A stretch of 64,000 nt of DNA, from contig NZ_FNVP01000011.1 in assembly GCF_900108015.1 (NCBI RefSeq), forward strand, positions 1-64,000, written 5' to 3'. This DNA is from Flavobacterium urumqiense. Lineage in GTDB: Bacteria > Bacteroidota > Bacteroidia > Flavobacteriales > Flavobacteriaceae. The notes beneath the pieces were generated by a model. The model saw only the letters and a program-made list of their open reading frames with translations. It did no database searches and had not been told where the DNA came from. The translations under genes and the position numbers were made by a program. Every line of letters starts with the position of its first letter. The stretch's first letter is position 1. Shown here piece after piece: positions 18,339-37,000 of the stretch.

Positions 18339-18373
18339 TATATTTGAATAATCAAATTACATTTATATCTTTG
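18339..18373 (+). promoter_or_regulatory. candidate trp operon promoter -7 elements
   Basis: Two perfect TAnnTTTG matches precede the leader peptide: TATATTTG at 18339-18346 and TATCTTTG at 18366-18373. The first would leave a short untranslated leader before the trpL start at 18379. The second would give an almost leaderless transcript. Which one is used cannot be decided here. Confidence 0.5.
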
Positions 18374-18378
18374 TAGTA

Positions 18379-18435
18379 ATGAAAACAATTACAAACAATA
18401 CTTGGTGGTGGAACAATTTACGTCAGACGTCGTGA
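18379..18435 (+). CDS. trpL: tryptophan operon leader peptide
   Basis: The 18-residue open frame reads MKTITNNTWWWNNLRQTS, with three consecutive Trp codons (18403-18411). It lies directly upstream of a hairpin-plus-T-run and trpE. Three Trp in an 18-residue peptide is not expected by chance in such AT-rich DNA. This is the layout of a classical translation-coupled attenuator: ribosomes stall at the Trp codons when charged tRNA-Trp is scarce. Its stop codon (18433-18435) lies inside a segment that can pair with the terminator region. Confidence 0.88.
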   Translation: MKTITNNTWWWNNLRQTS

Positions 18436-18500
18436 ACAAAGCTTCCATAGTATTACTAACTATAAATATAAAAGGCTTGTCATCACGACAGGCCTTTTTT
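18429..18500 (+). promoter_or_regulatory. trp attenuator: antiterminator and terminator
   Basis: The terminator is an 11-bp stem, AAAGGCTTGTC (18471-18481) with GACAGGCCTTT (18487-18497), followed by more T residues. The alternative pairing is GTCGTGA (18429-18435, spanning the trpL stop codon) with TCACGAC (18483-18489), which would break the terminator's loop and 3' arm. A ribosome stalled at the Trp codons leaves 18429-18435 free and favours read-through. One that reaches the stop codon covers it and favours termination. Confidence 0.8.
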
Positions 18501-18547
18501 TTTGTGCCCATTTTATCACTATCACACAATACTAAAATATATATAAA

Positions 18548-19948
18548 TTGAAGCCTTTTAAACTAAACACAAATTATAAGCAAATACTTGCCGATACCAT
18601 TACTCCGGTGAGTGTATATCTCAAAATTCGCGATAAATTTCCTAATAGCTTATTGCTGGAAAGCAGTGATTATCATGGAAGTGACAACAGTTTTTCTTAC
18701 ATTTGTTGCAATCCGATTGCTTCTATAAAAATAGAAAATGAAATTATTCATAAAATATTCCCTGATGGAAGTTTTGAGAAAATTACAATTGATTCGACTA
18801 CTGATATTCCAGCAGTTATTCAAGAGTTTTCGAGTCAATTTAAATCGGAGAAAAATGATTTCAAGTTTATCAATAATGGTTTATTTGGCTATATTTCCTA
18901 TGATGCCGTTCGTTATTTTGAAACAGTAACTATTACTAAAAAAGACAATAGTATTTCTATTCCTGATGTTTATTATGCCGTTTACCAAAATATAATAGCC
19001 ATCAATCATTTTAAAAATCAAGCGTATATCTTTTGTCATAGTTTAGATGGAAGAAACAACATTTCGGAAATTGAGCAGTTATTGCAATCAAGAAATATTG
19101 CTTCCTATAAATTCTCTAAAAAAGGAGACGGTTTTTCTAATTTGACAGATGACCAATTCATGCATAATGTGGCTTTAGCCAAAAAACATTGTTTCCGTGG
19201 TGATGTGTTTCAATTAGTTTTATCCAGAAGGTTTACCCAAGGTTTTAAAGGGGATGAATTTAATGTTTATAGAGCATTGCGAAGCATCAATCCTTCACCC
19301 TATTTATTCTTTTTTGATTATGGTGATTTTAAAATATTTGGTTCTTCGCCAGAAGCACAAATTATTGTAAAAGATCGTAAAGCTGAAATTCATCCTATAG
19401 CAGGAACTTTCAAAAGAACGGGCGATGACGAAAAAGATGCCGTTCTTGCCAAAGAATTAGCAATTGATAAAAAAGAGAACAGTGAGCATGTAATGTTGGT
19501 GGATTTAGCCAGAAATGATTTGAGTAGAAACGGACATAATGTAAATGTCGAAAAATATAGGGAAGTTCAATTTTTCTCGCATGTTATTCACTTGGTTTCT
19601 AAAGTAACGGGACATTTACATGAAAATGCAACAACGATGCAAGTGGTAGCCGATACTTTTCCTGCGGGAACATTAAGCGGCGCTCCCAAGCACAGAGCGA
19701 TGCAACTGATTGAAGAATACGAAAAAACAAACCGTAGTTTTTACGGTGGAGCCATTGGTTTTATGGATTTTGAAGGCAATTTTAATCACGCTATTATGAT
19801 TCGTACTTTTCTAAGTAAAAATCATCATTTACACTCTCAAGCTGGAGCAGGAATTGTTGCCGGCTCCGATGAAGAAAGCGAAATGCAGGAAGTCTATAAT
19901 AAATTGAGAGCCTTGAATGCGGCTTTGGATTTAGCGGAAACAATATAA
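18548..19948 (+). CDS. trpE: anthranilate synthase component I
   Basis: TrpE converts chorismate to anthranilate with ammonia delivered by TrpG. It has 466 residues. The N-terminal LLLESS motif (residues 35-40) is the Trp feedback-binding element. The catalytic chorismate-binding domain follows: FQLVLSRRFTQ, GSSPEAQI, IAGTFKRTGDDEKD, GTLSGAPKHRAMQLIEEYE and the C-terminal QAGAGIVAGSDEESE. The start is a TTG at 18548. No suitable ATG lies nearby, and the protein begins MKPFKLNTNYKQ as family members do. It is the first structural gene behind the attenuator. Confidence 0.95.
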   Translation: MKPFKLNTNYKQILADTITPVSVYLKIRDKFPNSLLLESSDYHGSDNSFSYICCNPIASIKIENEIIHKIFPDGSFEKITIDSTTDIPAVIQEFSSQFKSEKNDFKFINNGLFGYISYDAVRYFETVTITKKDNSISIPDVYYAVYQNIIAINHFKNQAYIFCHSLDGRNNISEIEQLLQSRNIASYKFSKKGDGFSNLTDDQFMHNVALAKKHCFRGDVFQLVLSRRFTQGFKGDEFNVYRALRSINPSPYLFFFDYGDFKIFGSSPEAQIIVKDRKAEIHPIAGTFKRTGDDEKDAVLAKELAIDKKENSEHVMLVDLARNDLSRNGHNVNVEKYREVQFFSHVIHLVSKVTGHLHENATTMQVVADTFPAGTLSGAPKHRAMQLIEEYEKTNRSFYGGAIGFMDFEGNFNHAIMIRTFLSKNHHLHSQAGAGIVAGSDEESEMQEVYNKLRALNAALDLAETI

Positions 19949-20042: not shown

Positions 20043-20609
20043 ATGAAAAAAATACTAGTCATAGACAATTACGATAGTTTCACTTATAATTTAGTGCATT
20101 ATCTCGAAGATTTAAATTGCGAAGTAACCGTTTACAGAAACGACGAATTTGATATTGATGAAATAGCTACATTTGATAAAATACTACTTTCTCCCGGACC
20201 TGGTATCCCTGATGAAGCAGGATTATTGAAAGATATAATTAGAAAATATGGTCCAACCAAAAGTATTTTTGGTGTTTGTTTGGGTCAACAAGCAATTGGC
20301 GAAGTTTACGGAGGAACACTTTCGAATTTAGATAAAGTATATCATGGTGTCGCAACGATAGTAAAAACAGTAGTAGATGACGAGCTTTTATTTGAAGGAT
20401 TAGGAAATGAATTTGAAGTAGGACGTTATCATTCTTGGGTGGTTGACACCAATTTACCAGATGTTCTGGAAGCTACTTCATTCGACGAAAATGGACAAGT
20501 AATGTCGTTGCGTCACAAAACGTATGATGTTCGTGGTGTACAGTTCCACCCTGAAAGTGTTTTGACTCCGAATGGGAAAAAGATATTAGAAAACTGGATT
20601 AAATCTTAG
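20043..20609 (+). CDS. trpG: anthranilate synthase component II (glutamine amidotransferase)
   Basis: This class I glutamine amidotransferase supplies ammonia to TrpE and perhaps, in this group, also to aminodeoxychorismate synthase. It has 188 residues. The nucleophile is Cys79 in FGVCLGQQAIGE. The His-Glu pair is His169 and Glu171 in VQFHPESVLT. The oxyanion-strand motif LLSPGPGIPDEAG is at about 48-60. It lies 94 bp after trpE. Confidence 0.95.
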   Translation: MKKILVIDNYDSFTYNLVHYLEDLNCEVTVYRNDEFDIDEIATFDKILLSPGPGIPDEAGLLKDIIRKYGPTKSIFGVCLGQQAIGEVYGGTLSNLDKVYHGVATIVKTVVDDELLFEGLGNEFEVGRYHSWVVDTNLPDVLEATSFDENGQVMSLRHKTYDVRGVQFHPESVLTPNGKKILENWIKS

Positions 20610-20712
20610 TAGTCAGTGTTCAGTCGCAGTAATCAGTCGACTAAATTTAATTAACATTATTCAATACCAAATTTTGCGTCTTTGAGCCTTTGTGGCAAAA
20701 ACAACCTAAAAA

Positions 20713-21699
20713 ATGAAAAACATATTAAACAGATTAATTAATCACGAAATACTTTCGCAAGAAGAAGCAAAAAATGTATTGGTAAATATCTCTAACGGGA
20801 GTTATAACACTAGTCAGATTGCTTCATTTCTTACCGTATACATGATGCGAAGCGTTAGTATAGAAGAACTTTCTGGATTTCGGGAAGCGTTATTGGACTT
20901 GTGCATCCGAGTGGATTTATCCGCTTACAATACTATCGATTTATGTGGAACAGGCGGTGATGGAAAAGACACTTTCAATATTTCAACCTTGGCTTCATTT
21001 GTGGCTGCGGGAGCAGGAATAAAAGTAGCAAAACACGGAAATTACGGCGTTTCTTCTATTTCGGGTTCCAGTAATGTGATGGAGAAATTAGGAATCAAAT
21101 TCAGCAATGACAATGATTTTCTGGAGAAATGTATCGATAAAGCAGGAATTTGTGTTTTACATGCGCCCTTATTTCATCCAGCCATGAAAAATGTAGGACC
21201 AATTAGAAAAGAATTGGCTGTAAAAACATTCTTCAATATGTTGGGACCAATGGTAAATCCTTCGTTTCCCAAAAACCAATTGGTAGGTGTTTTCAATTTG
21301 GAATTAGCCAGAATGTATGCGTATCTGTATCAAAATACAGCTGTGAATTTCACCATCTTACATTCGATTGACGGCTATGATGAAGTTTCCTTGACAGGAC
21401 CTACAAAAACAATTACTAGTTCTATGGAAGGAATGCTAAATCCAGAAGATTTTGGTGTTCGTCTTTTGCTGCAAAGCGAAATAGAAGGTGGAACTACTAT
21501 TGACGAATCCTCTCAAATGTTTACCAATATCATTTCTGGAAAAGGTACTGAAGCCCAAAATAATGTGGTTTGTGCCAATGCGGCCATGGCCATTGCAACG
21601 GTTACAAAATGTTCTCCTTTAGAAGGATTTCAAATAGCAAAGGAAAGTTTATTATCCGGAAAAGGACTTGTAGCTTTGAAGAAATTACAGAATATGTAA
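20713..21699 (+). CDS. trpD: anthranilate phosphoribosyltransferase
   Basis: TrpD joins anthranilate to PRPP. It has 328 residues, slightly shorter than many homologues but complete. The PRPP-binding GTGGDGKDTFNIST (about 76-89), the KHGNYGVSSISGSSNVME block (about 105-122) and the conserved late blocks GPTKTI and DGYDEVSLTG are all present. It sits in the trp operon. The 104-bp spacer before it contains dispersed-repeat-like text (20618-20700, including TTGCGTCTTTGAGCCTTTG), a kind of intergenic repeat that I recall from Flavobacterium genomes. Confidence 0.95.
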   Translation: MKNILNRLINHEILSQEEAKNVLVNISNGSYNTSQIASFLTVYMMRSVSIEELSGFREALLDLCIRVDLSAYNTIDLCGTGGDGKDTFNISTLASFVAAGAGIKVAKHGNYGVSSISGSSNVMEKLGIKFSNDNDFLEKCIDKAGICVLHAPLFHPAMKNVGPIRKELAVKTFFNMLGPMVNPSFPKNQLVGVFNLELARMYAYLYQNTAVNFTILHSIDGYDEVSLTGPTKTITSSMEGMLNPEDFGVRLLLQSEIEGGTTIDESSQMFTNIISGKGTEAQNNVVCANAAMAIATVTKCSPLEGFQIAKESLLSGKGLVALKKLQNM

Positions 21700-21801
21700 G
21701 CCCCCCAACCCCCGAAGGGAGAGTTAAAAAATAACAAAAAAGTATAATAAAGAACTCAATGAGGTCCAACAGTTCCCCCTTCGGGGGTTAGGGGGCTAAT
21801 T
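21698..21801. repeat. GC-rich inverted repeat between trpD and trpC
   Basis: The left arm, from AAGCCCCCCAACCCCCGAAG (21698-21725), and the right arm, ending CTTCGGGGGTTAGGGGGCT (21771-21801), form a long inverted repeat of about 28 bp with few mismatches. The loop is AT-rich and about 45 bp. Each arm can also fold on itself (CCCCCTTCGGGGG). It is strikingly G/C-rich against its surroundings and begins inside the trpD stop codon. It looks like a mobile intergenic palindromic element. Confidence 0.75.
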
Positions 21802-21805
21802 AAAA

Positions 21806-22594
21806 ATGAACATCCTAGATAAAATTATAGTTGACAAAAAAAGAGAAGTAATTCTCAAGAAATCTATCATTCCCGTTTCGCAATTGGAAGCTTCTGTTTT
21901 TTTTGAAAGAAAGACTATTTCTTTGAGCGATAATTTAAAAAACAGCACGTCAGGAATTATTGCTGAACACAAACGTCGTTCGCCGTCCAAAGCAGAAATA
22001 AATTATAGTTTTACGGTGGAAGAAGTAACTAAAGGCTACGAAAATGCTGGTGCTTGTGGAATTTCGGTATTGACGGACGGAAAATATTTTGGTGGTTCGC
22101 TAGACGATTTACTTTTAGCAAGAGCCACAGTAAACATTCCATTATTGAGAAAAGAATTCATTGTTGATGAATACCAAATCTTAGAAGCCAAAGCACATGG
22201 AGCCGATTTAATTCTACTTATTGCAGCAGTTTTAACGAGGGACGAAATCAAATCTTTATCTGAATTTGCTAAAAGTTTGGGATTGGAAGTATTGTTGGAA
22301 GTTCACAATCAGCAAGAATTGGAAAAATCAATTATGCCCACATTGGATATGATTGGTGTAAACAACAGAAACCTAAAAACATTCGAAGTGAGTTTGGATT
22401 TCAGCAAGCAATTAGCAGCACAAATTCCAGATGATTTTGTAAAAGTTTCCGAAAGCGGGATTTCATCTATTGAAGCTATTACTGAATTAAAACCATACGG
22501 ATATAAAGGTTTTTTAATTGGAGAAAACTTTATGAAAACGGATAATGTCGGTAAAGCGGCAACGGAATTTATTTCGAAATTAATATTAAATTAA
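21806..22594 (+). CDS. trpC: indole-3-glycerol-phosphate synthase
   Basis: TrpC closes the indole ring from CdRP. It has 262 residues and a TIM-barrel fold. Visible blocks are IIAEHKRRSPSKAEI (catalytic Lys region), ISVLTDGKYFGGSLDDL, LRKEFIVDEYQILEAKAHGA, EVLLEVHNQQELEK, IGVNNRNLKTFEV and VSESGI. TrpF is a separate gene downstream. It begins 106 bp after trpD, beyond the palindromic element. Confidence 0.95.
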   Translation: MNILDKIIVDKKREVILKKSIIPVSQLEASVFFERKTISLSDNLKNSTSGIIAEHKRRSPSKAEINYSFTVEEVTKGYENAGACGISVLTDGKYFGGSLDDLLLARATVNIPLLRKEFIVDEYQILEAKAHGADLILLIAAVLTRDEIKSLSEFAKSLGLEVLLEVHNQQELEKSIMPTLDMIGVNNRNLKTFEVSLDFSKQLAAQIPDDFVKVSESGISSIEAITELKPYGYKGFLIGENFMKTDNVGKAATEFISKLILN

Positions 22595-22630
22595 TCTATT
22601 TACAGGTTAATTAATGAATAAAATAATAGT

Positions 22631-23245
22631 ATGCAAAAATTACTTCTATTTCTTTTTTTTGTAAGTTTTACCTCATTTTAACAAATTAGGTATTATAAAA
22701 TTAATTATGACGATTTACCCCAATCAATTGAACTTATAGAAAATGATAATGGCAAATTCATTGGAACTATAAATACGGAATTAGATAAGGGCAATTGGGA
22801 TATTACTTGGTTAAATAGAACTTGGAGAAAGCTTTGGAAAATAGAAAACAAAAAAAAATCTATTGTTGATCCAATAAATGAAGAGTTAGTTAAAAATTTA
22901 ATGAACCAATTAGAAAAAGACGGAATTGAAACAATTAAAAATTGTAAAGATGATGTCAATTGTAATAACATTGGTTTTCTTGATGGTTCAAGTACATCCT
23001 TTAAAATTAAAACTAAAAAAAATGACCGTGAATATTATTTCAGTGAAATATATCCAATTTTAAAAGATAACATAGAAACTAATGAGATTAGAAAAAAAGC
23101 ACAAAATATCATAACTACATTGGACAAATTTATTAGCCAAAAAGAAAGTTTTTCCAATGCAATTAAACAATTACCAAGGGGTAAATACTACTATTTTAGT
23201 GGTATCTCCATTTGCCGAATAAATAATAATAAAAAGAGGAAATAA
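22631..23245 (+). pseudogene. secreted protein gene broken by a stop in the signal peptide
   Basis: A frame begins at ATG 22631 with MQKLLLFLFFVSFTSF, a typical flavobacterial signal peptide. It hits TAA at 22679-22681, then continues in the same frame for about 187 codons to 23245 without another stop. The codons around the stop read TTT TAA CAA. A single TCA-to-TAA change would restore SFSQ, a normal signal-cleavage ending. The rest (from KINYDDLPQSIELIEND to SGISICRINNNKKRK) matches no family I recognise. It lies inside the trp operon between trpC and trpF. Alternatives are a sequencing error or translation from the internal Met at 22901. Confidence 0.75.
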
Positions 23246-23284
23246 GTAACATTATTGAGAAATACATATACTAAAATTCAAAAG

Positions 23285-23926
23285 ATGAAACTCAAAATCT
23301 GCGGCATGAAATATCCCGATAATATACTCGAAGTAGGTTCGCTTCTACCCGATTATATGGGATTTATATTCTGGGAGAAATCAGCGCGGTATTTTAATGG
23401 TAGCATTCCGGACTTACCAAAATCAATCAAGAAAGTAGGAGTTTTTGTCAACGCTACACAAGAGGATATTCTTGAAAAAATAGCAAAATACGATTTGCAG
23501 GCCGTTCAATTACACGGACAGGAATCGGTTGAATTTTGTTTAGATTTGAAACAAGTTTTAAAAGATGACAATGGAAAACAAATTCAAATTGAAATCATAA
23601 AAGTATTCTCTGTTGATGATTCTTTTGATTTTGAAGTATTGAAACCCTTTGAAACCGTTTGTGATTATTTTCTTTTTGATACCAAAGGAAAATTACCCGG
23701 CGGAAACGGAACCACATTCAATTGGAAAGTATTAGAAAAGTATTCTTCAAACAAGCCATTTTTCCTAAGTGGCGGAATTGGTTTAGAAGAAATCGATTTA
23801 ACAAAAGAAATTTTAACAACAAATTTACCAATTCATGCTTTGGATTTAAATAGCAAATTTGAAATCGAGCCAGGATTAAAAGATAAAAAAATATTGAAAA
23901 AGTTTCAGAACAATTTGAAACTTTAA
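23285..23926 (+). CDS. trpF: phosphoribosylanthranilate isomerase
   Basis: TrpF carries out the Amadori rearrangement of PRA to CdRP. From the Met at 23285 it has 213 residues. The frame is open to a TTG at 23255, but the family start is MKLKICGM. KICGMKYPDNI carries the catalytic Cys. GVFVNATQEDI, VQLHGQESVEFC, FDTKGKLPGGNGTTFNW (catalytic Asp region) and FLSGGIGLEEI follow. The C-terminal LDLNSKFEIEPGLKD is the conserved 'DxSSGxE' region, with LNSKFE here. It stands 20 bp upstream of trpB. Confidence 0.93.
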   Translation: MKLKICGMKYPDNILEVGSLLPDYMGFIFWEKSARYFNGSIPDLPKSIKKVGVFVNATQEDILEKIAKYDLQAVQLHGQESVEFCLDLKQVLKDDNGKQIQIEIIKVFSVDDSFDFEVLKPFETVCDYFLFDTKGKLPGGNGTTFNWKVLEKYSSNKPFFLSGGIGLEEIDLTKEILTTNLPIHALDLNSKFEIEPGLKDKKILKKFQNNLKL

Positions 23927-23946
23927 ACTTTTAAACTTTAAACAAA

Positions 23947-25128
23947 ATGAGTTACAACGTCAACGAAAAAGGCTACTACGGAGAATTTGGAGGCGCTTAC
24001 ATTCCTGAAATGTTATATCCAAATGTCGAAGAATTACGTCAAAATTATTTAAAAATTACGGCTGAACCAGAATTTCAAGCTGAATTTGATGCCTTGTTAA
24101 AAGATTACGCAGGTCGCCCTACGCCTCTTTATTTTGCAAAACGACTATCGCAACAATACAATACTAAAGTTTATCTGAAAAGAGAAGATTTGTGTCACAC
24201 TGGCGCCCATAAAATCAACAATACTATCGGACAAATTCTTTTGGCAAAACGTTTAGGCAAAACCAGAATCATAGCTGAAACAGGTGCTGGACAACATGGT
24301 GTCGCTACAGCAACTGTCTGTGCGCTAATGGGATTAGAATGTATCGTTTATATGGGAGAAATCGACATCAAGCGTCAAGCGCCAAATGTAGCTCGTATGA
24401 AAATGTTAGGTGCTGAAGTTCGTCCCGCTCTTTCAGGATCTCGTACACTAAAAGACGCAACTAATGAAGCCATTCGCGATTGGATCAACAATCCCGTTGA
24501 CACCTATTATATCATAGGATCTGTAGTGGGACCGCATCCTTATCCAGATATGGTAGCGCGTTTTCAAAGTGTTATTTCTAAGGAAATCAAGGAACAATTA
24601 CTGGAAAAAGAAGGACGTGAAAATCCAGATTACGTAATCGCTTGTGTAGGTGGCGGAAGCAACGCTGCCGGAGCTTACTATCATTTTCTTGATGAATCGT
24701 CCGTGAATATTATCGCTGTTGAAGCCGCAGGATTAGGAGTAGATTCGGGCGAAAGTGCCGCTACCTCCGTCTTAGGTAAGATTGGCGTCATTCATGGCAG
24801 CAAAACCTTGCTAATGCAATCTGTTGACGGCCAGATTACCGAACCATATTCCATTTCTGCAGGTTTGGATTACCCAGGAGTTGGTCCTATGCATGCGCAT
24901 CTGTTCGCTTCAAAAAGAGCACAATTCATTTCCATCACAGATCAGCAAGCCATGGATTGGGGTTTAAAATTATCTAAAATGGAAGGTCTGATTCCTGCAA
25001 TTGAAAGCGCGCATGCCTTTGCTGTGCTCGACGAAATGAAATTCAAGCCAGAAGATATCGTAGTCATCAACCTTTCTGGTCGTGGCGACAAAGATTTGAA
25101 TACCTACATCGATTATTTTAAATTATAA
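23947..25128 (+). CDS. trpB: tryptophan synthase beta chain
   Basis: TrpB condenses indole and serine on PLP. It has 393 residues, the normal length for the TrpB1 type. The PLP Lys is Lys89 in [25 protein letters not shown] is the substrate-binding block, [15 protein letters not shown] holds the PLP phosphate, and [13 protein letters not shown] is the C-terminal block. Codon use and conservation look normal. A 236-bp spacer that contains a structured repeat separates it from the next gene. Confidence 0.97.
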
Positions 25129-25129
25129 G

Positions 25130-25320
25130 TTGGGTTTATCCCGTATTTATTTCGGGGCGTTACCTCGCTTTCACTAGCGTTTCAGCGCGGTCAGGCTTTC
25201 CGTTGCAATCTTTTTTATCTCGTTAAAAAACGAGATAAAAAAGGATTTCCACTTCAAACGAAGTTCACTGAACTCCAATAAAAAATAAGAGTTTAGTGAA
25301 GTAATCCTTAACGAAAACCC
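25130..25320 (-). repeat. dispersed structured repeat, copy C (inverted, expanded)
   Basis: Read on the minus strand this carries the same ordered blocks as the copies at 9594 and 36881 (on the plus strand: GGGCGTTACC, GGTCAGGCTTTCCGTTGC, a long stem, then AATCCTTAACG). The stem is ATCTTTTTTATCTCG (25208-25222) with CGAGATAAAAAAGGAT (25231-25246), longer than in the other copies. It has an extra hairpin between blocks (TTCACTGAACTC near 25264, GAGTTTAGTGAA near 25289). It lies inside the trp operon after trpB. Confidence 0.65.
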
Positions 25321-25364
25321 AGCACTAAAATAACGTTCAATTCACATTTTTCAAAATAGAAATT

Positions 25365-25685
25365 ATGGAAAAATTATTTGCTTACGGCAGCTTACAAAAT
25401 GAGGACATACAAAAAGATCTTTTTGGGCGTATTCTTGAGGGAACTCCCGAAACGTTAATTGGTTATGTAATAAAAGAAATTCAAATCGAAGAAGAATTTG
25501 GATTAGTACACTATCCCATTATTACGGAAACCAATAAGCCGGAAGACACTATCAACGGAATGGTATATTCCATTTCACTACAAGAACTTCGCCAAACAGA
25601 TCTTTACGAAGGATTGCATTACAAACGCGTTGAAGTGCATTTAAAATCGGACCAAAAAGCTTGGGCCTACAGTGCGGCAATTTAA
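25365..25685 (+). CDS. gamma-glutamylcyclotransferase-like (AIG2 family) protein
   Basis: This 106-residue protein begins MEKLFAYGSLQNEDIQKDLF. YGSL is the hallmark substrate-binding loop of the GGCT/AIG2 fold. A later GMVYSISLQELRQTDLYEG provides the conserved acidic position (Glu in LYEG). Family members release 5-oxoproline from gamma-glutamyl amines, or act on unknown substrates. It is a single-domain cytosolic protein. It lies between trpB and trpA with 67 bp to trpA, so it is probably transcribed with the trp genes, but no metabolic link is evident. Confidence 0.85.
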   Translation: MEKLFAYGSLQNEDIQKDLFGRILEGTPETLIGYVIKEIQIEEEFGLVHYPIITETNKPEDTINGMVYSISLQELRQTDLYEGLHYKRVEVHLKSDQKAWAYSAAI

Positions 25686-25752
25686 ACTAGTAAACTACAA
25701 CTAAAACTACAAGGTCAAAAAAGACCTTGTAAACGGAATAAAAAATATAAAA

Positions 25753-26514
25753 ATGAACCGAATAAATCAAAAATTACAAGAGACTAAAAAGATACTTTCC
25801 ATCTATTTCTCCGCAGGATATCCAAACGGCAACGATACCGTACAAATCATTCAGGATTTGGAAAAAAGTGGCGTTGACATGATCGAAATCGGATTGCCGT
25901 TCAGCGATCCATTGGCCGATGGACCAACAATTCAAGCCAGTTCCACACAAGCCTTGCACAACGGAATGACAACACAAGTTTTGTTTGACCAATTAAAGGA
26001 CATTCGTAAATCAGTTTCTATTCCTTTAGTAATAATGGGTTATTTCAACCCGATGTTGCAGTACGGAGTAGAGAATTTCTGCCAGAAATGTGCGGAGATT
26101 GGTATCGACGGATTAATCATTCCTGATCTTCCCGTTGATGTGTATGCCGATGAATACAAAGCTACTTTTGAAAAATACGGATTGAAAAATATATTCTTGA
26201 TTACACCACAAACTTCTGACGAGCGCATCCATTTTATTGACAGCGTATCTGATGGTTTTATCTATATGGTAAGTTCGGCGAGCGTTACAGGGTCCCAAAC
26301 CGGTTTTGGAAGCATTCAAGAAGATTATTTCAAACGCATTGCTGACATGAATCTAAAAAATCCACAAGTAATAGGTTTTGGAATCAACAATAAAGAAACT
26401 TTTAACCAAGCCACACAATTTGCCAAAGGAGCCATTATAGGTAGTGCCTTCATCCAGCATTTAACCGAAAACGGAACAGGAAAAATCGAAGAATTTGTGA
26501 AAGCGATTCGATAA
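25753..26514 (+). CDS. trpA: tryptophan synthase alpha chain
   Basis: TrpA cleaves indole-3-glycerol phosphate and passes indole to TrpB. It has 253 residues. The catalytic acids are visible as Glu45 and Asp56 in VDMIEIGLPFSDPLADGPTI. The phosphate-binding and loop blocks YMVSSASVTGSQTGFG and VIGFGINNKETF are present. It is the last gene of the operon and is followed 24 bp later by a strong terminator. Confidence 0.96.
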   Translation: MNRINQKLQETKKILSIYFSAGYPNGNDTVQIIQDLEKSGVDMIEIGLPFSDPLADGPTIQASSTQALHNGMTTQVLFDQLKDIRKSVSIPLVIMGYFNPMLQYGVENFCQKCAEIGIDGLIIPDLPVDVYADEYKATFEKYGLKNIFLITPQTSDERIHFIDSVSDGFIYMVSSASVTGSQTGFGSIQEDYFKRIADMNLKNPQVIGFGINNKETFNQATQFAKGAIIGSAFIQHLTENGTGKIEEFVKAIR

Positions 26515-36752: not shown

Positions 36753-36880
36753 TATTTTTAGAATTCAAAATGATAAAATTAAAAATCAAATACAATTATA
36801 ATAAACCACTTACAATTACGAAAACCTATAATCCTACAAAACAAACTTCATAACTCCATTATTCCTCCTCTGCAGGATTT

Positions 36881-37000
36881 GCACGAGAGATGGAAGTGGC
36901 ATCCTTTTATAAAGCTTCGCGGAATAAAAGATACAACGAACAGCTCGACCCGGAGTTGCGAGGAGGAACGACGAAGCTAAAACCGAGGGGCGTGCCCAAA
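36881..37000 (+). repeat. dispersed structured repeat, copy B
   Basis: The segment has the same block order as copy A at 9594. GAGAGATGGAAGTGGC comes first, then the stem ATCCTTTTAT (36901-36910) with ATAAAAGAT (36924-36932), then ACAGCTCGACCCGG and GGGGCGTGCCCAAA. The stem position that is G-C in copy A is A-T here, so pairing is kept. About 20 extra bases sit before the last block. The rest of the 36544-37139 spacer is AT-rich, without a gene. Confidence 0.7.

Follow-up and report, generated by a model that had tools for sequence, protein, structure and literature searches.

A Bacteroid-trp attenuator upstream of trpE in Flavobacterium urumqiense with a predicted leaderless start and an antiterminator strand complementary to the terminator loop

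A Flavobacterium trp operon carries a probable attenuator upstream of trpE, which we analyzed in a 64,000-nt stretch of the F. urumqiense genome (the window, from whose first letter all coordinates are counted). The trpE gene (18548..19948, + strand) appears to start with TTG, a codon that is found at the aligned position in 73 of the 79 named relatives checked (L001-L080), and it matches TIGR00564 with an E value of 8.6e-133, under the curated cut-off of that model. Downstream of trpE the genes trpG (20043-20609), trpD (20713-21699), trpC (21806-22594), trpF (23285-23926), trpB (23947-25128) and trpA (25753-26514) form a block on the + strand (20043..26514), with trpF under its curated cut-off (E 1.5e-37) and the others over theirs. 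Extra small frames lie within the operon in the trpC/trpF gap (22901-23245) and in the trpB/trpA gap (25365-25685), the latter being without a match in the NCBIfam search. The trpB/trpA gap, and thus the operon, also contains a Flavo-1 RNA (RF01705, function unknown) on the minus strand at 25185-25269, and a second one is located at 36876-36954 on the plus strand.

The leader peptide frame (MKTITNNTWWWNNLRQTS, 18379..18435, +) comprises 18 codons from the ATG at 18379-81, the sole ATG in frame upstream of the Trp codons, to the TGA stop at 18433-35, and it includes three Trp codons TGG TGG TGG (18403..18411, +). It is followed by an intrinsic terminator (18470..18503, +) consisting of a 12-bp hairpin (18470-18498, AAAAGGCTTGTC-ATCAC-GACAGGCCTTTT) and a T tract up to 18503; one terminator was found here compared to 0.2 in shuffled sequences. 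A previous sequence-only reading of the same DNA had described an 18-residue frame with WWW followed by a T-tailed hairpin, and both were confirmed base for base. The 7-bp pairing that it proposed between 18429-18435 and 18483-18489 is also correct, as GTCGTGA and TCACGAC are exact reverse complements. The first of them, the anti-loop strand (18429..18435, +), makes up the 5' half of the antiterminator, and its target (18483..18489, +) is composed of the 4-nt terminator loop and the first 3 nt of the 3' arm. Folding and covariation further identify a 1:2 hairpin, with the Trp codons inside its 5' half (segment 1, 18397..18422, +) and segment 2 as its 3' half (18431..18454, +). The fold of the leader has a z of -3.8 versus chance, and two alternative folds were obtained, either the 1:2 hairpin together with the terminator or the antiterminator. 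From sequence and folding, the leader peptide is thus accompanied by a terminator and an antiterminator that are mutually exclusive.

The element belongs to the Rfam family RF01692 (Bacteroid-trp), as it scores 74.8 bits over the full model length (1-131) against a gathering cut-off of 49 (E 1.5e-7, whole window searched), has a Trp leader frame before trp genes and contains the conserved 1:2 hairpin. Bacteroid-trp RNAs appear in Weinberg et al. 2010 (PMC2864571) and are mentioned in passing for F. psychrophilum (PMC6414381), for which leader-peptide attenuation ahead of amino-acid operons is also described (PMC9723704). In genome draws that partly overlap, RF01692 matches occurred in 199 of 299 genomes at the level of the genus, 244 of 349 for the family, 47 of 296 for the order and 30 of 296 for the phylum, and also in 12 of 149 genomes drawn from a different order, to which one of the matching genomes belongs. 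The element itself is thus already known. Window and Rfam model share the Trp leader peptide, the 1:2 hairpin and the downstream trp genes. The model does not cover the promoter spacing and stops within the terminator 5' arm (the window match ends at 18481), so that it does not include the loop pairing.

We then compared the leader with its relatives, the nearest named ones being Flavobacterium species. Leaders were searched in 328 places, namely the window, 80 named Flavobacterium loci and 247 loci with RF01692 matches (L081, which is the window itself, was excluded), and a leader frame was found in 325 of them, including a frame in L308 that looks spurious, and in none of L210, L288 and L298. 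Among these 325 leaders 296 sequences are distinct. In three Flavobacterium genomes (L208, L213 and L215) a Bacteroid-trp leader beginning MNLILTNTWWW precedes a TrpB-like frame, and no trpE was found downstream of it. Another genome (G170, contig 1) has two Bacteroid-trp matches about 3.8 kb apart, with trpE after one of them (L225) and not after the other (L089).

The Trp codons are strongly conserved, as all but two of the 286 leaders in the set, which includes the window, contain WWW (284 of 286). The RNA structure was assessed on 65 aligned leaders that remained after thinning of 159 ending in WWW..LR.TS or SS. Here the 1:2 hairpin is paired in 91.3% of the cells and shows two-sided changes at 5 pairs and in 29 cells compared to 2.1 and 8.9 in shuffles; a single pair of this hairpin is U-A in 40, C-G in 21 and A-U in 2 of the sequences. 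The terminator is paired in 99.0% of the cells. Codons and stems are therefore conserved in relatives in the way that the sequence-only reading had anticipated for a Trp attenuator of the ribosome-controlled kind, an assignment that sequence comparison and folding both support. Its view that the switch uses only one extra segment has to be given up, because the covarying 1:2 hairpin covers the Trp codons. That reading had noted neither this hairpin (18397-18454) nor the Rfam family, nor did it include the promoter at 5 nt from the ATG or the possible additional antiterminator helix (18439-44/18472-77).

In the E. coli trp attenuator a Trp leader peptide is combined with the alternative pairings 1:2, 2:3 and 3:4, the position of the ribosome decides between them, segment 2 pairs with the terminator 5' arm and translation begins at a Shine-Dalgarno sequence. 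The element in the window has in common with it the Trp leader peptide, the alternative pairings and the proposed control by ribosome position. It differs in having no Shine-Dalgarno sequence and in a strand that pairs not with the 5' arm but with loop bases and the top of the 3' arm, and Rfam Trp_leader is absent among the 30 matches at E up to 5. Terminator loops can usually vary freely, but that of the trp terminator shows little change and is complementary to the strand at the end of the leader. Pairing of the stop region with the terminator loop and the start of the 3' arm passed at 5% of shuffles in 259 of 274 trp leaders, whereas pairing of segment 2 with the 5' arm passed in 0 of 274. 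The longest contiguous helix was clearly longer than in the leader's own shuffles in 261 of the 273 leaders that have a terminator, out of 286 examined. It is GTCGTGA/TCACGAC in 162 and TCGTGAA/TTCACGA in 43 of the 273, and altered words that are still complementary occur as well, such as GTGAGA with TCTCAC or TCTCAT (5 leaders), TGTCGCAAT/ATTGCGACA (L318) and GTTGG/TCAAC (L156). Among leaders from other, more distant families of Bacteroidota 10 of 13 passed at 5% of shuffles (L333, L335 and L337 failed). Compensating changes of the loop were observed in both L329 and L139 (stop TAA) and in L147 (stop TAG); as they are located inside the loop, the terminator stem does not explain them, while the changes in L338 and L339 affect positions 1-3 and overlap this stem. 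In the alignment of 65 sequences the anti-loop helix is paired in 98.5% of the cells and nearly invariant, with zero two-sided changes and a covariation score not above shuffles, and this alignment is thus neutral and adds no covariation credit. A test in a fixed 9-nt register gave a poor result, with 6 of 27 odd divergent cores above shuffles; it is blurred by alternative registers such as GTCGTCGTG and was replaced by the longest-contiguous-helix tests.

An antiterminator with E. coli geometry would chiefly take the 5' arm, with AAGCUU pairing to AGGCUU and the loop pairing being secondary. The fold of the window indeed contains both helices, the second one formed by a possible strand AAGCTT (18439..18444, +) with AGGCTT at 18472-77, and AAGCT-type or CCT words able to pair with the arm recur in relatives. 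As only 54.9% of the cells are paired, the arm pairing in relatives reaches no more than 9.9 compared to 9.3 in shuffles, and not a single trp leader passed the 5'-arm test that so many passed for the loop, we regard this geometry as improbable and did not keep the second helix as part of the switch. The his attenuator of the same genome (L355/L356, G000 contig 15, about 111.4 kb, minus strand) has a MFTNQLHHHHFHYCFQAMC leader, a T-tailed hairpin, hisG downstream and a promoter 31 nt before its ATG. In contrast to the trp leader it shows the 5'-arm geometry, and among 48 his leaders of the same family (from 50 hisG loci examined) 40 passed for the 5' arm and 3 for the loop. A candidate loop pairing in the his leader (GATGTGTT/AGTACATC) was not above shuffles and was dropped, as the 5'-arm pairing was above them. 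The opposite results for trp and his leaders settle the geometry, so that the statement of the sequence-only reading that it differs from that of E. coli is confirmed. Comparison thus gives good support for loop-capture antitermination, for which we found no previous description. As the his operon has the textbook geometry, both designs can be compared within one cell.

According to the sequence-only reading the leader stop codon falls inside the antiterminator strand. This is true for the window and most relatives (offset 3-5 in 205 of 273 leaders) but not as a rule, as the stop drifts between 11 nt before the start of the anti-loop strand and 9 nt after it. It is shifted upstream in 43 of 273 leaders (offsets -11 to -2) and downstream in 25 of 273 (offsets 7 to 9), and in both groups TCGTGA is mostly retained, which argues for selection on the RNA word and not on the stop. 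Wherever it is placed, the stop is always near enough to TCGTGA for a terminating ribosome to cover this word. The strong invariance of GTCGTGA and TCACGAC would also fit recognition by a protein or a small RNA, with Trp being sensed by other means than ribosome position, and a short terminated RNA could act in trans like rnTrpL from Sinorhizobium (PMC7298713). Since the complementarity is kept through changes (L318, L329, L147, L338 and L339) and the Trp codons are kept almost throughout the set, we consider such a role highly improbable and favor pairing of the two words under the control of the ribosome.

The promoter was assigned by reading the sequence against the consensus for the Bacteroidetes housekeeping sigma factor (sigma-A) given in PMC6847099. 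The distance to the ATG is 5 nt from the end of a -7 element TATCTTTG (TAnnTTTG, 18366..18373, +), which is preceded at 19 nt by a -33 element TTTG (18343..18346, +); a scan for sigma-70 promoters gave no match, as expected in this phylum. In F. johnsoniae transcription is described to start 4-5 nt downstream of the -7 element (PMC6847099), and the predicted 5' end is therefore 18378 or 18379 (+), 0-1 nt before the ATG. Judged by this spacing, the leader mRNA is probably leaderless. In the 325 leaders the distance between -7 element and ATG is bimodal, with 62 leaders at no more than 6 nt (33 at 4 nt, 27 at 5 and 2 at 6) and 237 at 14 nt or more (10 of them with a relaxed element having one mismatch), while 23 are at 7-12 nt and 3 are without an element. 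Among the other frames of the fetched loci, where orthologues are counted repeatedly, 71 of 894 have an element no farther than 50 nt away, in one case at 3-6 nt; the window contains 6 frames of this kind, one of them with the element at 5 nt. A search for the pattern TTTG-ATG-TGGTGGTGG returned mostly chance matches.

The overlapping word TATATTTG (18339-46) is a second full TAnnTTTG and could be a separate -7 element, so that candidate elements lie 32 and 5 nt before the ATG. If it were the true promoter, the leader would measure about 28 nt and the attenuator would be an ordinary leadered one of the Bacteroid-trp family; the other TAnnTTTG would be due to chance or a weak extra start. Published averages are on the side of a leadered message, as leaders of more than 10 nt are given for 87% of those F. 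johnsoniae transcripts that have a probable promoter (PMC6847099) and leaderless messages make up 5.5% of the mapped F. psychrophilum mRNAs (PMC9723704), with about 3.7% under 10 nt given for B. thetaiotaomicron (PMC7366714). In the leaderless class, however, a second full TAnnTTTG within 60 nt upstream is present in only 5 of 54 rows, whereas 44 of the 54 carry NTTG at a distance of 17-22 nt upstream of the -7 element (39 of them at exactly 19 nt), and thus TATATTTG is best read as containing the -33 element. Furthermore, the nearest leadered relative, F. xinjiangense (L001, TrpE 96.8% identical), shares promoter and frame, which align with those of the window except for a single 11-nt gap between them (spacing 16 nt versus 5 nt). 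We therefore judge the leadered alternative to be unlikely, though slightly less so than the 5'-arm geometry, and predict a leaderless sensor frame, again a feature without a description that we could find.

The evolution of the spacing was followed on a FastTree tree of TrpE with 286 rows, from which sequences with less than 300 aligned residues or no promoter were dropped and in which duplicates were merged; L256, having two candidate elements, was left out of the counts. On this gene tree, with short forms left out, leaderless and leadered forms interchanged at least 14 times, and at least 8 times if only branches with FastTree support of 95 or more are counted. The other species in the clade of the window (support 87) are leadered. 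An intermediate spacing of 11-12 nt with a leader of about 7 nt occurs in L192, L204 and L220, which are closely related to leaderless forms and are possibly transitional states. It seems somewhat more probable than the opposite that Bacteroidota trp operons form an attenuator class of their own, in which an anti-loop strand would catch the terminator loop at the last moment and which would be leaderless in many lineages including this one, with no fewer than 8 losses or gains of the leader, some of them through one short indel between promoter and AUG, and with the switch kept.

For the window itself we consider it likely that the trp operon is controlled by a ribosome-dependent transcription attenuator of the Bacteroid-trp family with a leaderless start and an anti-loop switch. 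Sequence comparison shows the leader peptide and its promoter spacing, the 1:2 hairpin, the terminator and the complementarity of the anti-loop strand, and from them we infer the start site, leaderless loading, order of events and Trp response as follows. RNA polymerase would start at the AUG or one base before it, so that the ribosome would have to load on an essentially leaderless message; according to PMC6847099 starts in Bacteroidota are without Shine-Dalgarno sequences. With scarce charged tRNA-Trp the ribosome would stall on the UGG codons and mask segment 1, and the free GUCGUGA could bind UCACGAC as the bases of loop and 3' arm leave the polymerase, which would block nucleation of the terminator and result in read-through into trpE. 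With ample Trp the ribosome would reach the stop codon and cover GUCGUGA, allowing the terminator to form, and with no ribosome loaded the 1:2 hairpin could hold CGUGAA and favor termination. Calculated folds are consistent with the two translated states: with segment 1 covered, RNA up to 18489 adopts the anti-loop form (-14.2), whereas covering of the stop region leaves no more than a scrap of the terminator by 18489 (-0.4), and the terminator proper forms afterwards. Without a ribosome RNA up to 18489 favors the anti-loop form at equilibrium (-16.7), and the block by the 1:2 hairpin would thus have to be kinetic. The competition between terminator (-16.2) and antiterminator (-13.9) would be kinetic too, since the terminator is more stable; over the complete leader the terminator is invariably the favored fold at equilibrium, which is what a kinetic switch should show. 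As the anti-loop target becomes available only once the loop leaves the polymerase, the decision would be made later than in E. coli.

Leaderless short frames controlling downstream genes are known from the cysteine-codon attenuators of mycobacteria, which would resemble the trp leader in this respect and differ in amino acid and phylum. In Sinorhizobium meliloti the RNA of the Trp attenuator (rnTrpL/peTrpL) is reported to begin with the AUG of trpL (PMC7298713). That start is reported and ours predicted, and as phylum and promoter type are different as well, the likeness does not imply a shared origin. Searches of open-access articles turned up no description of leaderless leaders or of antitermination by loop capture for Bacteroidota. 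Our analysis suggests that the element is a member of a known family with two features for which we found no prior description, loop-capture antitermination and the leaderless sensor frame. The usual model of attenuation comes from E. coli, where the leader has a Shine-Dalgarno start and the antiterminator captures the 5' stem of the terminator. If our reading is true, the same decision can fall later, through capture of the loop, and a leader peptide can operate without the need of a 5' UTR. Close pairs such as the window (5 nt) and F. xinjiangense (16 nt) would then be natural experiments showing the effect of leaderless initiation on attenuation.
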